From positions 1-50,248 of the IMG/VR virus record IMGVR_UViG_3300035698_012004: DNA of 50,248 bases, one strand, 5' to 3'. The first letter of the stretch is position 1. Each line of letters starts with the position of its first letter. Positions 1,746-37,811 of the stretch are shown here, in pieces. A program made the position numbers and the translations under genes. The notes under the pieces are model-generated. The model was not told the DNA's origin. It ran no database searches and saw only the letters and a list, made by a program, of their open reading frames with translations. Source of the stretch: a virus.

Positions 1746-1814
1746 ACGAGCTACCGCGACCCGCGGATCACCGGCGAGGGTCAGCTAGCCTTTCTGCCCC
1801 GGCCGACAATCTGA

Positions 1815-1935
1815 GGGAAGGGAGCGGGAAGCGGTCGGTAGACGGTGCTCCGGATGCGTGTCCCCTTGGAGCATGGGGGATGCAAGTCATCCATCTGCCA
1901 ATGTACCCCCCCGCTTCCTTCCCGTTTTTCTTTTT
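1815..1935 (+). ncRNA. RNA module 0: long hairpin ending in a terminator
   Basis: GGGAAGGGAGCGG (1815-1827) pairs with CCGCTTCCTTCCC (1911-1923), 13 bp with one G-U, and is followed by GTTTTTCTTTTT. Inside the closing stem are TGCTCC/GGAGCA and GGATG-CAAGT-CATCC hairpins. The T-tract makes the 3' end a plausible intrinsic terminator for the integrase/HNH operon or for a small RNA. Confidence 0.5.
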
Positions 1936-2037
1936 GCCCCCGGCGGCGTGTTCGCGTCACGCTGGTCTTACTGGAATGACCACAAGGCGTCGGCCAGTAC
2001 ATTGGCTTTGCGGTCGGGATTTATCCGGCTCGGGGGC
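1936..2037 (+). ncRNA. RNA module 1, tRNA-like closing stem and T-arm
   Basis: The 5' GCCCCCG pairs with the 3' CGGGGGC, which is followed by TTT. Internal hairpins include GCGTG-TTCGCGT-CACGC and TGGTC...GACCA. The last hairpin, GTCGG-GATTTAT-CCGGC, abuts the closing strand as a T-arm would. It shares 15 bp at the 5' end and 17 bp at the 3' end with module 2. Confidence 0.4.
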
Positions 2038-2160
2038 TTTCTACTATTCAGCGAAACAGAGACGGCTTGCCGATGCAGCCAACTGTAGATGTGGGACCAG
2101 AATCGGCCGTTACCCCAAGAGGTTCACGCCAGTTACGTCAAGACTGGCACTTTACGAACA

Positions 2161-2307
2161 GCCCCCGGCGGCGTGGACAGTGACACGCCCGAGATGTAGC
2201 ACCCTCGGCACCAGCACAGAGCGGCACGGTGCCGAGGCTTTGGCAATCTTGCGCCCAAAGTGTACCGCTCGATCAATGGGAAGCCGGTGTAATTCCGGCT
2301 CGGGGGC
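2161..2307 (+). ncRNA. RNA module 2, paralogue of module 1
   Basis: It starts with GCCCCCGGCGGCGTG (identical to 1936-1950) and ends with TCCGGCTCGGGGGCTTT (2294-2310, identical to 2024-2040). Internal hairpins include GGCGTG-GACAGTGA-CACGCC and CCGAG...CTCGG. The final arm, GCCGG-TGTAATT-CCGGC, has a 5-bp stem and a 7-nt loop. The middle is longer and unrelated to module 1, so only the ends are conserved. Confidence 0.4.
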
Positions 2308-2327
2308 TTTTCACCTTATCCAGCGGC

Positions 2328-2424
2328 GGGCCTGGTTGGCGAACAGGAGCGTACGATCCTGCTTAGCCATTGGCAAAAGCATCGGGGAACTCCGGTGCAA
2401 CGGGTTCAATTCCCGTCAGGTCCA
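2328..2424 (+). ncRNA. RNA module 3, tRNA-like with consensus T-arm
   Basis: GGGCCTG (2328-2334) pairs over 7 bp with CAGGTCC (2417-2423), followed by an A as discriminator. A textbook T-arm, ACGGG-TTCAATT-CCCGT (2400-2416), precedes the 3' strand. Other arms are CAGGA...TCCTG (2344-2361), TGCTT...AAGCA and a 7-bp GCATCGG/CCGGTGC hairpin with a 6-nt loop. No arm offers a normal 7-nt anticodon loop, so I do not call it a functional tRNA. Confidence 0.4.
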
Positions 2425-2601
2425 CTTACCGAGGTCGCGCGTCACAAGTCTGGCAGCCTCGATTTCTACGGGTACGCCGTCAGAGCCCGCCAAGCGGCTA
2501 GGCCAGCCCGCGCTTTCTCCTACAAAACCCGCTGGCTTATTTCGTTGCACGCTCCCTGCAAGGCCGATCGGCGGCGGGGGTATTTCTATGGAGGAAATTC
2601 A

Positions 2602-3294: not shown

Positions 3295-5036
3295 CCATCA
3301 CCCTCAGCCGTGCCCGCGTCGCGGGCAGCCGGATCGTATTCCGGGGAGAGCCCACCCCGGACCTCGTCGCGTTCTACCGGTCTCTCCCCCGGGCGGCCGA
3401 GACGCTGTGTTGTCCGGCCTGCCGGTCCGGCAACACCTACACGGTGCCCGGCGTGGCCGCGTTGCTAGGCGTCAAGGGGCTCTGCTGCCGCGACTGCGGT
3501 CGCAAGTTCACGGTCGCCCAAAGCCAGTCTTCCGCCTGGGCCTGTGACGCGACGCCGGGGGCCGCCTGGCGGATTATGGGGCAGTCGGGGATCGACGATC
3601 AGGATGGGATACCGCCACTGGCCGAGAAGCTCCAGGGCGTGCTCGACCCTTGCCGGATCGAGACGGGTCAACCGGCGATCCGGAGGACCGACGCCTGGGA
3701 CCACCAGGTCGAGGCGTATCGGTTCGCGCTGCCGCGCCCGGCAACGCTGCTGGAAATGGGGATGGGGACGGGGAAAACGAAGGTCGCCATCGACCTGGCG
3801 GCGAACTGGGGATGCGAACGGGTGCTCGTGCTTTGTCCTAAGTCGGTTATGGACGTGTGGGAGCACGAGATCGGGGTCCACGCTGCCCATGCACCACGAT
3901 TGCTTGTGCTGCACAAAGGCTCCGTCAAGAAGAAAATGGAAGCGGCAGACCAGTGGTTGGACTGGGCCGGTCCTGCCGTCATCGTCCTCAACTACGAGGC
4001 CGCCCGGGCGAGTGCATTCGCCGAGTGGAGCCTGGCACAGCAGTGGGATCTGGTGATCCTGGATGAGTCGCATCAAGGGAAGGCGCCTGCAAGCGTCACG
4101 GCCCGCTACCTGGAAAAGCTAGGCCGTAGAGCAACCCGGCGGCTCTGTCTTACGGGCACCCCGATGCCAAACGGACCGTTGGATATCTTCTCCCAGCTCC
4201 GCTTTCTCGACCCAGGTTTGTTCGGCACGTCGTTCTGTTGGTTCCGCGATCACTACGCGACGATGGGCGGATACGAGGAGCGGGAGATCGTCGCCTATCG
4301 GAACGTCGACGAGATGCAACGGCTGATGTCGCTGATCACGTTCCGCTGTGGCGACGAGGTGCTTGACCTGCCGCCGGTGCAGGATCACTACCGTCGGTTT
4401 GACCTGTGCGCCAAGGCGCGGAAGCACTACAACGAGCTGGAGACCGAACTGGTGACGGAGATCGACGCGGGCGAGGTGACGTGCGCGAACGCGCTGGTGC
4501 GGTTGTTGCGGTTGCAGCAGATCACGAGCGGGTATCTGGCCGTCGAGGGCAGCCCGCCCGAGTCAATCGACACCGGCAAGGCTACCCTGCTCGCCGAGCT
4601 CCTCGAGGATATTGGCCCCGATGAGCGCGTCGTCGTCGCCTGCAAATTCCTGCACGACCTCGACGTGGTCCGTCAGGTTGCCGATGCACTCGGCCGGGGG
4701 TACGGCGAGATCAGCGGGCGATACAACGATTACCGGGCATGGAAAGCCGGGCACTTTGACGCAAAGCCGTGCAACGTCCTCGGCACCCAGATCCAAGCGG
4801 GATCGCTCGGTATCGACCTGAGTGAGGCCCGCTACGCGATCGCGTACAGCGTGGGCTTTTCCCTGGGCGACTGGCTCCAATGGCGAAAACGGACCGACCG
4901 GCCCGGCCAGACGCGGGGCGTTCACTACTACCATCTGATCGGCCGGGACACGGTCGATGAGGCCGTGTACGGGGCGTTGCGAAAGAAGCAGCAGGTCGTT
5001 GAGGCCGTCTTGAGTGGTCTAACAAAGGGAGATTGA
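3291..5036 (+). CDS. SNF2-family DEAD/H ATPase with N-terminal zinc finger
   Basis: A 581-aa superfamily 2 DNA translocase of the SNF2 type used by many phages in replication or recombination. Visible motifs: CPAC...CRDC zinc-binding cluster (residues 41-69); Walker A GMGTGKT (about 157-163); motif II LDESH near residue 258; motif III LTGTPMPNG; motif V AGSLGIDLSEA; motif VI QWRKRTDRPGQ, ending in the typical DTVDEAVYGALRKKQ helix. The zinc cluster before the ATPase is an unusual addition that may direct DNA or partner binding. ATG 3291 follows a run of GGGGAGGGG. In-frame sequence from 3195 is probably not translated because it overlaps the preceding gene. Confidence 0.9.
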   Translation: MTITLSRARVAGSRIVFRGEPTPDLVAFYRSLPRAAETLCCPACRSGNTYTVPGVAALLGVKGLCCRDCGRKFTVAQSQSSAWACDATPGAAWRIMGQSGIDDQDGIPPLAEKLQGVLDPCRIETGQPAIRRTDAWDHQVEAYRFALPRPATLLEMGMGTGKTKVAIDLAANWGCERVLVLCPKSVMDVWEHEIGVHAAHAPRLLVLHKGSVKKKMEAADQWLDWAGPAVIVLNYEAARASAFAEWSLAQQWDLVILDESHQGKAPASVTARYLEKLGRRATRRLCLTGTPMPNGPLDIFSQLRFLDPGLFGTSFCWFRDHYATMGGYEEREIVAYRNVDEMQRLMSLITFRCGDEVLDLPPVQDHYRRFDLCAKARKHYNELETELVTEIDAGEVTCANALVRLLRLQQITSGYLAVEGSPPESIDTGKATLLAELLEDIGPDERVVVACKFLHDLDVVRQVADALGRGYGEISGRYNDYRAWKAGHFDAKPCNVLGTQIQAGSLGIDLSEARYAIAYSVGFSLGDWLQWRKRTDRPGQTRGVHYYHLIGRDTVDEAVYGALRKKQQVVEAVLSGLTKGD

Positions 5037-6367: not shown

Positions 6368-7007
6368 ACCCATCACCGCGTCCGAGCTGCCCCGCGTGCG
6401 GATGCCGACCAGCGGGGCGACGTCTTGGATCGTCACCAATGCCCTCGGCGACCAGAGCGTCCCGAGACTGGAAGGCGTGATCCTCTATACGGCTCGGCGG
6501 CGGGCGTACTGGCCCAGCCCCGATCCGACCGGCGATCCGCCGGACTGCGGGAGCTTCGACTGCGTGACGGGGCACGGGACGCCCGGCGGCGACTGTGCCG
6601 CCTGTCCATGCAACCAGTGGGGCTCGGCCATCAAGTCGGGAGGCGGCCGCGGCCGGGGGAAAGCCTGCAAGGAAGGCCGGTTGATCTTGCTCCTGCCCAA
6701 AGGCGAGTCGCTGCCCCTCGTGCTGGTCGTGTCGCCCGGCTCGCTGGCGCCGATCCGCAACTACCTTGCGCAGCTTGCCGCGGGCGGGTGCCGCTACTAC
6801 GAGGTGGTGACCGAGCTGGGGCTGACCCCGGACAAAAACCGCGACGGAATCGCCTACGCCAAGCTGGCCCCCCGGATGCTTGGACGGCTCGACGCGAAGT
6901 CGACGAAGGCCGTGGCGGGGATCGCCGAATCGTACACGGCTGCACTGGCCGCGTTCCAGGTCCAGAATGCCGACGTGGCCGGCGAGACGACCACGGTGGA
7001 GGTGTAG
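6270..7007 (+). CDS. Conserved phage protein with Cys cluster, SSB-like?
   Basis: A 245-aa protein. The centre carries CAACPCNQWGSAIK, then GRGKACKEGRLILLLP, a pattern I associate with phage proteins near single-strand-binding and recombination genes. The Cys cluster could bind zinc. ATG 6270 is set by AAGGAG seven bases upstream. Placement between the SNF2 ATPase and the primase fits a DNA-metabolism role, but a binding activity is inference. Confidence 0.65.
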   Translation: MANDLVPLTQKDWPALNPGNPTLALLRENLGNEPITASELPRVRMPTSGATSWIVTNALGDQSVPRLEGVILYTARRRAYWPSPDPTGDPPDCGSFDCVTGHGTPGGDCAACPCNQWGSAIKSGGGRGRGKACKEGRLILLLPKGESLPLVLVVSPGSLAPIRNYLAQLAAGGCRYYEVVTELGLTPDKNRDGIAYAKLAPRMLGRLDAKSTKAVAGIAESYTAALAAFQVQNADVAGETTTVEV

Positions 7008-37586: not shown

Positions 37587-37811
37587 ATGGCCAGCACGAA
37601 AGACATCTACGAAGCGGACGTCTACGCTGCCGGCATCTTCGCCGCTGGTGTCTGGCGGGGGAGCGGCATTGTGTCGCGGACGATCCTCTCGGGCAGGCTG
37701 GGAGTCGTGCCGTCCTACACGGCGACTCCGGTCGTCGAGCCGTCCTACACGGCGACTCCGGTCGTCGAGCCGTCGCACGAGACGGCAGGGGTAAACATAT
37801 ACCCAGCGTGA
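37587..37811 (+). CDS. Small repeat protein, 74 aa
   Basis: The C-terminal half contains the unit PSYTATPVVE twice, then PSHETAG, from an exact 30-bp tandem duplication. Thr/Ser/Pro-rich, extended and exposed. It could be a linker or glycan acceptor given the nearby glycosyltransferase. Confidence 0.6.
   Translation: MASTKDIYEADVYAAGIFAAGVWRGSGIVSRTILSGRLGVVPSYTATPVVEPSYTATPVVEPSHETAGVNIYPA
37711..37770 (+). repeat. 30-bp tandem repeat x2, in-frame
   Basis: CGTCCTACACGGCGACTCCG followed by GTCGTCGAGC, exactly duplicated (37711-37740, 37741-37770). It adds ten residues per copy without shifting frame. Confidence 0.9.

Follow-up and report, generated by a model that had tools for sequence, protein, structure and literature searches.

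The IMG/VR record analysed here is a virus contig of 50,248 bp, the whole of which we refer to as the window, and its gene set (integrase, HNH-AP2 endonuclease, helicase, terminase, portal, capsid and tape measure) is that of a tailed temperate phage. A search for relatives of the phage with its helicase or capsid protein gave nothing beyond pieces of the same phage and a single relative at 38%. A tyrosine integrase (189–1103, + strand; phrog_1, 7e-26; PF00589) and, immediately upstream of the RNA block discussed below, an HNH-AP2 homing-type endonuclease (1107–1745, +; phrog_3377, 6e-48) are followed by 856 nt without a credible gene, from the HNH stop at 1745 to the next ATG at 2602. An earlier note on this DNA had described the stretch as gene-free and had regarded coding potential as one of the points on which an RNA reading could fail. 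An open forward frame does span the block, as part of an 833-aa ORF (104–2605, +; chance probability ~0.002), but the ORF has no Pfam match and overlaps the integrase and HNH genes, which are read in a different frame, and the RNA block displays no codon periodicity; we therefore read the ORF as spurious. Since all three forward frames are, furthermore, interrupted in 19 of 31 homologues, a coding role for the block was rejected.

Folding of the whole block is better than that of shuffled sequences (z −2.67), and four hairpin-closed modules had been proposed within it. Three of these are tRNA-like, while the other, at 1815–1923, looks like a terminator-type hairpin rather than a tRNA mimic: its arms (1815–1828 and 1910–1923) are 93% complementary and are followed by TTTTTCTTTTT, the complete terminator-like structure (1815–1935, +) being one that probably ends the integrase–HNH transcript. 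Positions 1936–2307 then hold two RNA modules with identical closing arms. A 15-nt 5′ arm, GCCCCCGGCGGCGTG, recurs exactly at 1936–1950 and 2161–2175 and a 17-nt 3′ arm, TCCGGCTCGGGGGCTTT, at 2024–2040 and 2294–2310, the shared arms and their mutual pairing being as first reported; an exact direct repeat of 17 nt within 856 nt is longer than any in 1000 Markov simulations (maximum 15). The pairing of GCCCCCGG with TCGGGGGC gives an 8-bp helix that closes both modules. Acceptor, D-stem and T-stem are common to the two, whereas D-loop and insert are unlike, in agreement with the different interiors seen before.

Module 1 (1936–2037, +) is a diverged paralogue, in which the GCCCCCGG/TCGGGGGC acceptor encloses a D-arm at 1946–1962 (GCGTG-TTCGCGT-CACGC), an insert at 1963–2012 and a T-arm-like stem at 2013–2029 (GTCGG-GATTTAT-CCGGC); its D-loop TTCGCGT and T-loop GATTTAT depart from the loop consensus of the family described below. 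No feature was recognised in the spacer that separates it from module 2 (2038–2160, +). Module 2 (2161–2307, +) is a full family member according to descriptor scans and covariation with homologues, with an acceptor (2161–2168/2300–2307), a 2-nt linker, a 5-bp D-stem (D-arm 2171–2188, GCGTG-GACAGTGA-CACGC), an insert (2189–2282) and a stacked T-stem with a 7-nt loop (T-arm 2283–2299, GCCGG-TGTAATT-CCGGC). Its loops, GACAGTGA and TGTAATT, match the family consensus, in which a D-loop GACRRYGA or one of GG type goes with a fitting T-loop; in module 2 the contacts are A18/G55 and G19-U56. Module 3 (2328–2424, +) reads as a tRNA-like element of a different sort, with only the acceptor and T-arm in common with the family and no family-type D-arm. 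Here a 7-bp acceptor (GGGCCTG/CAGGTCC, discriminator A at 2424) closes a 4-bp stem, TGGC/GCCA, around the hairpin CAGGA/TCCTG, a variable-arm-like hairpin at 2379–2398 and a canonical T-arm at 2400–2416 (ACGGG-TTCAATT-CCCGT), which contains the TTCAATT loop that the earlier note had picked out. All three modules thus end, as it had also observed, in a 5-bp stem and 7-nt loop abutting the 3′ closing strand. The non-coding stretch ahead of the ATG at 2602 (2425–2601, +) bears a GGAGG resembling a ribosome-binding site upstream of the ATG, and 2485–2491 could form an alternative closing stem with 2325–2331.

A normal anticodon arm is absent from every module, as initially recognised, and ARAGORN made no call on any of them or elsewhere in the block; its tRNA-Ala(CGC) at 37645–37733 (+) lies within a coding region and is apparently false. 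The Rfam scan that had been suggested as a check found no family at its gathering threshold in the window. The best weak tRNA match in this search, to tRNA-Sec across module 3, scores 18.2 bits against a gathering score of 47, and a selenocysteine tRNA was rejected, as was a likeness of GGGAAGCCGGTGNAATTCC to cobalamin riboswitches, which the Rfam search did not support. A long, gene-free, structured block in a phage is a property shared with GOLLD, ROOL and other large phage RNAs, and an ornate RNA of this kind was one of two readings offered at the outset. GOLLD and ROOL are, however, single large folds, whereas this locus is a row of small tRNA-like modules of 95–150 nt, which are separable and whose homologues occur singly in other phages; no homology to GOLLD or ROOL was found. 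Given this separability and the lack of an Rfam match, we attach next to no probability to the large-RNA reading.

The other reading offered was a new family of tRNA-mimic RNAs, and relatives were sought in IMG/VR. The first search, with the 15-nt arm, was informative in the case of one contig, L119, which carries two homologous modules, among them the nearest homologue of module 2 (L119:3079–3235). The D-stem of these modules differs from that in the window by a compensated change (GCGTT/AACGC against GCGTG/CACGC). A second pattern, consisting of the conserved D-arm alone, found the same architecture in many unrelated phages, the homologues having CG as linker, GCGTG-GACAGTGA-CACGC and a 5-bp T-stem with the loop TGCAATT that abuts the 3′ strand of the acceptor. 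Chance matches inside genes, namely L193 and about 30 of these first D-core matches, were set aside. Further patterns, all narrow, then widened the set to at least 169 modules (at least 139 distinct) on at least 156 contig segments, while the same descriptor returned 0 modules from an equal amount of shuffled DNA (3.8 Mb). As far as sequence comparison can define it, this is a large family present on more than 100 uncultured phage contigs. Its architecture comprises a 7-bp acceptor, a 2-nt linker, a 5-bp D-arm (typically GCGUG-GACAGYGA-CACGC), an insert of 39–284 nt where a tRNA has its anticodon arm, and, stacked on the acceptor, a 5-bp/7-nt T-arm. The acceptor sequence differs from phage to phage, yet it is nearly always fully paired. 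The window copies may be atypical of the family, because the 19–56 contact of module 2 is a G-U wobble and the loops of module 1 are not of the consensus type; L199, L242 and L302 are examples of cleaner members. A tRNA mimic in the strong sense is a description of module 2 as far as its sequence indicates, and modules 1 and 3 would fit it more loosely.

Because part of the 39-sequence shell alignment was picked by a descriptor that demands pairing, we regard the alignment as descriptive and take the unbiased evidence from selections made on one arm alone. When matches were selected by the D-arm core only, 19 of 63 had their own 7/7 acceptor and a 5-bp/7-nt stem-loop, as compared with 0.5 for swapped acceptors and 0.15 for shuffled downstream DNA. 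All 19 complete cases fall among the 31 matches with an intact D-stem, against 0 of the 32 others. The reverse selection, by T-arm alone, gave 20 of 74 against 0.45 with swapped acceptors. In the alignment itself 98.9% of cells are paired and two-sided change occurs at 15 of 17 pairs, so that the covariance proposed as a check in related phages was indeed found; the covariation score is 0.625, against 0.166 ± 0.013 for shuffled alignments and at most 0.09 for slid partners.

In the tRNA elbow the D-loop touches the T-loop through the 18–55 and 19–56 contacts, and both can be followed across the family. G55 accompanies A18/G19 (GACAG) in 22 of 24 D-core matches, for whose selection the T-loop was not used; of the other two, L143 has U55 and L135 no T-loop consensus. 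A scan for G18 (GACGGYGA), which again ignored the T-loop, gave 36 matches, 30 of them with acceptor and T-stem, and U55 is found in 29 of these 30 modules. At the second contact A19 is always accompanied by U56 (3 of 3, two of the phages being related), while the partner of G19 is C56 or, in three cases that include the window, U56. Furthermore, in 17 of 19 cases a GG-type D-loop (GTGGGAA) is combined with TTCGAAT or TTCAAAT. The Fisher p of 2e-21 for the elbow pools sets that were partly selected by T-loop, the clean counts being 22/24 and 29/30. The two tertiary contacts thus covary, as expected for a tRNA elbow. Comparative sequence analysis establishes both these contacts and the three helices of the shell, and together with the placement of modules in tRNA arrays in some phages this bears out the proposal of a new tRNA-mimic family.

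These data also weigh on a simpler origin, in which the modules would be phage tRNA genes decaying through insertion and drift. Some phages do have modules in the midst of tRNA genes, and the TGCAATT T-loop is also found in true phage tRNAs, such as ordinary-looking tRNAs of L264, L252, L220, L209, L245 and L225, several of them Met-like with a CAU anticodon; such tRNAs are a possible evolutionary source of the module T-arm. Decay, however, gives no two-sided compensation at 15 of 17 pairs, nor does it account for a GCGUG/CACGC D-arm conserved in unrelated phages, for the covarying 18–55 contact or for the conserved A that ends 132 of the 139 distinct inserts listed. We consider degeneration very improbable.

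Apart from this terminal A, the inserts have little in common. Their lengths run from 39 to 284 nt with a median of 65, the longest perhaps spanning two modules, and no k-mer or motif is shared among them above the level in shuffles. They fold modestly better than shuffled sequences (mean z −0.9 over 45 inserts), some being strongly structured, and they form subfamilies such as L296/L365/L368/L373 and L279/L289/L338/L339; some can be drawn by eye with pseudoknots. The L141 insert seems, also by eye, to hold a smaller acceptor and T-arm, i.e., a nested tRNA-like element. For the inserts in the window no convincing complementary target was found in the phage's own genome: the inserts of modules 2 and 3 match the remainder of the genome over no greater lengths than expected by chance, and a guide or antisense role in the window was rejected. 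The module 1 insert has a 14-nt match elsewhere in the genome (reached in 1 of 100 shuffles), which is on the same strand and therefore not complementary.

A long insert closed by a tRNA-like acceptor, T-arm and D-region is also the plan of tmRNA (ssrA), which raises the question of whether the modules are tmRNA-like RNAs whose charged tRNA-like domain works on ribosomes. The pseudoknots drawn by eye in a few inserts and the CCA encoded by some members would suit such a role. tmRNA has no D-stem, however, while the modules have one of 5 bp; they are far shorter, have no tag reading frame and gave no tmRNA call by either Rfam or ARAGORN. The G3-U70 pair is the alanine identity pair of tmRNA, and in the modules pair 3-70 is A-U, U-A, C-G or G-C with one G-U among 39, so that this identity element is absent. 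The shortest inserts, at 39–42 nt, are moreover too small for a tag frame and pseudoknots. A tmRNA-like function is very improbable.

In the genomes that carry them, the modules follow the orientation of their surroundings. Long ORFs flanking the modules are on the same strand in 162 cases and on the opposite strand in 27, and tRNA genes within 600 nt, present at 16 loci, number 28 on the same strand and 0 on the opposite one. L199 has two successive modules between a preceding tRNA-Lys and a following tRNA-Tyr. Many members have no recognised tRNA gene close by, those of the window are outside any tRNA array, and no conserved partner gene occurs in more than 3 of 41 loci. CCA is encoded after the acceptor in 8 of 114 modules, most members having none, and TTT follows 30 of the 114 against an expectation of 5%. 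Comparison of the contigs establishes that the modules are oriented with the coding strand, that in certain phages they stand beside or among tRNA genes and that they are missing from the reference families searched. These features bear on whether the element acts instead at the DNA level, as a recombination or integration hairpin whose folded strand merely resembles a tRNA; the fold could in principle be read as single-stranded DNA. Inverted repeats form the module ends, with a sequence that changes from phage to phage but is often the same within one phage, and the window modules lie near an integrase. Against this stand the strong strand bias shared with genes and tRNAs, the tRNA-specific T-loop and 18–55/19–56 contacts, and the encoded 3′ CCA or T-run end of some members, and we judge a DNA element to be most improbable, if marginally less so than tRNA decay.

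Several further observations concern individual loci. Copies within one phage tend to share an acceptor while D-loop and insert differ (L130, L207, L242, L119, L251 and the window). Four modules stand in a row in L242, their acceptors almost identical, and the L251 copies, 11.6 kb apart, have TGATCGG and TGATTGG; L199 is an exception. On the reverse strand of L141, at ~2480–2770, a class-A module is followed by two tRNA-like elements that ARAGORN does not call, one with a canonical D-loop (TTGGTAA), the T-arm ACTGG-TTCGAAT-CCAGT and an 8-bp ‘anticodon’ stem with a 14-nt loop, the other with the ends TGGAAAAG/CTTTTCCA. Directly upstream of a module, L156:4762–4847 is a Leu-like tRNA (TGTCCTG...CGGGACA, D-arm GGCGGAATTGGTAGACGC) with no recognisable anticodon stem-loop, again uncalled by ARAGORN, and L203:2110–2181 (−), adjoining a module, is an ARAGORN tRNA with a 4-nt anticodon (cccg). 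After its two modules, L119 has hairpin-closed blocks at 3585–3815, with ends GGCGACCGT/ACGGTCGCC and GCGGCGGG/CCCGCCGC, the latter followed by TTTTT; a similar ATCCAGCGGCG sequence precedes both blocks and module 3 of the window. One of the 169 modules listed overlaps an ARAGORN call: at L406:6555–6797, with a 191-nt insert, a tRNA-Arg (6717–6797) uses the 3′ half of the module, and the module called here may combine a D-arm with a genuine tRNA.

Ordinary neighbouring tRNAs apart, neither the window nor any of 14 homologue loci reaches an Rfam family, and in the loci tested the modules stay below the RF00005 gathering threshold, which only true neighbouring tRNAs pass. BLAST with D-arms or whole modules, using particular D-arm variants, found no member in 50,697 phage records or in plasmids. 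An exact-pattern scan of 84,980 prokaryote genomes for a specific D-arm variant found one real member, L194 (JACQYR010000072.1). It is a contig of 56.7 kb from a Desulfarculus MAG, and its ParA- and ParB-like genes suggest that it may be a plasmid or phage-plasmid; the inserts of L194 and L125 have GGCGCGAACGA-AGGCTGGAAAACGCCATAGGCGTG in common. We found no description of such a family in a limited body of open-access literature. Canonical tRNAs (RF00005, including class II with its long variable arm) share the 7-bp acceptor, the 5-bp/7-nt T-arm and the 18–55 and 19–56 contacts, but the family differs in its 5-bp D-stem, its 39–284-nt insert and the lack of a 5-bp/7-nt anticodon arm.

The closest known RNA, in a comparison made by eye only, is RNAC of phage T4. 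RNAC is species 1 RNA, 139 nt long, and sits in the T4 tRNA cluster beside RNAD (species 2) and tRNA-Arg. As in the family, its T-arm (CCGGG-TTCGAAT-CCCGG) abuts the 3′ closing strand and there is no anticodon arm; as in some members, though not the window modules, it lies in a tRNA array. RNAC does not, however, have the GCGUG/CACGC D-arm, and by the same by-eye comparison its acceptor is mismatched. Stable RNAs of the T4 tRNA cluster have been shown to be expressed (PMC9697503), RNAC itself being a late transcript by Northern blot, with its function unknown (PMC9697503; PMC3014915).

We propose the following model of how the modules might work. Module 2 and, in a looser sense, the other two modules would specify a non-coding RNA in which an acceptor with a stacked T-arm and a D-loop docked on the T-loop form a tRNA-like shell, and a hypervariable, structured insert stands where the anticodon arm would be. 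The module may be co-transcribed with phage genes or tRNAs. RNase P reads the stack of acceptor and T-stem together with the elbow, and cleavage by the host enzyme at the 5′ end of the acceptor would therefore be expected; the 3′ end would arise by trimming or termination, with CCA added in some cases. The shell could then confer stability and abundance, and the insert might be the acting part, a host-tuned decoy or regulatory payload. Tuning to the individual host is suggested by a constant shell with an insert that is different in every phage. We put the probability that a tRNA-like shell carries a phage-specific insert acting on host factors at roughly one half.

The roles of shell and insert could also be reversed, the shell being an active decoy that titrates a host reader of elbow or acceptor, such as a tRNA-targeting defence nuclease or a tRNA-end or modification enzyme, and the insert serving merely to remove the anticodon. 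A conserved shell around inserts without shared sequence, an elbow maintained through covariation and several copies per phage in some genomes would all follow from this. The acceptor sequence, on the other hand, varies freely, which implies no sequence-specific acceptor reader, and anticodon nucleases read the anticodon loop, the very target that is missing here. A plain tRNA fragment would also suffice as a decoy, yet inserts reach 254–284 nt and several are significantly folded. A decoy shell is, in our view, unlikely, with about half the probability of the model in which the insert acts.

That model may extend beyond this phage. The usual annotation tools for RNAs and tRNAs that we applied (Rfam, ARAGORN) overlooked the family, which suggests that many ‘empty’ stretches of phage genomes hold tRNA-mimic RNAs. 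We tentatively suggest, at somewhat less than even odds, that a large unrecognised class of phage RNAs uses a universal tRNA chassis, maintained by covariation as far as the elbow, with an interchangeable, phage-specific payload replacing the anticodon to attack or evade the host RNA machinery, T4 RNAC being a distant example. The laboratory ‘tRNA scaffold’ is the engineered counterpart of this design; if the suggestion is correct, the class would be a natural ‘tRNA scaffold’ and the long-unexplained RNAC would gain a family. The family also provides a testable handle on the role of the extra stable RNAs in phage tRNA clusters, such as T4 RNAC and RNAD, and on how phages exploit the tRNA machinery of their hosts.
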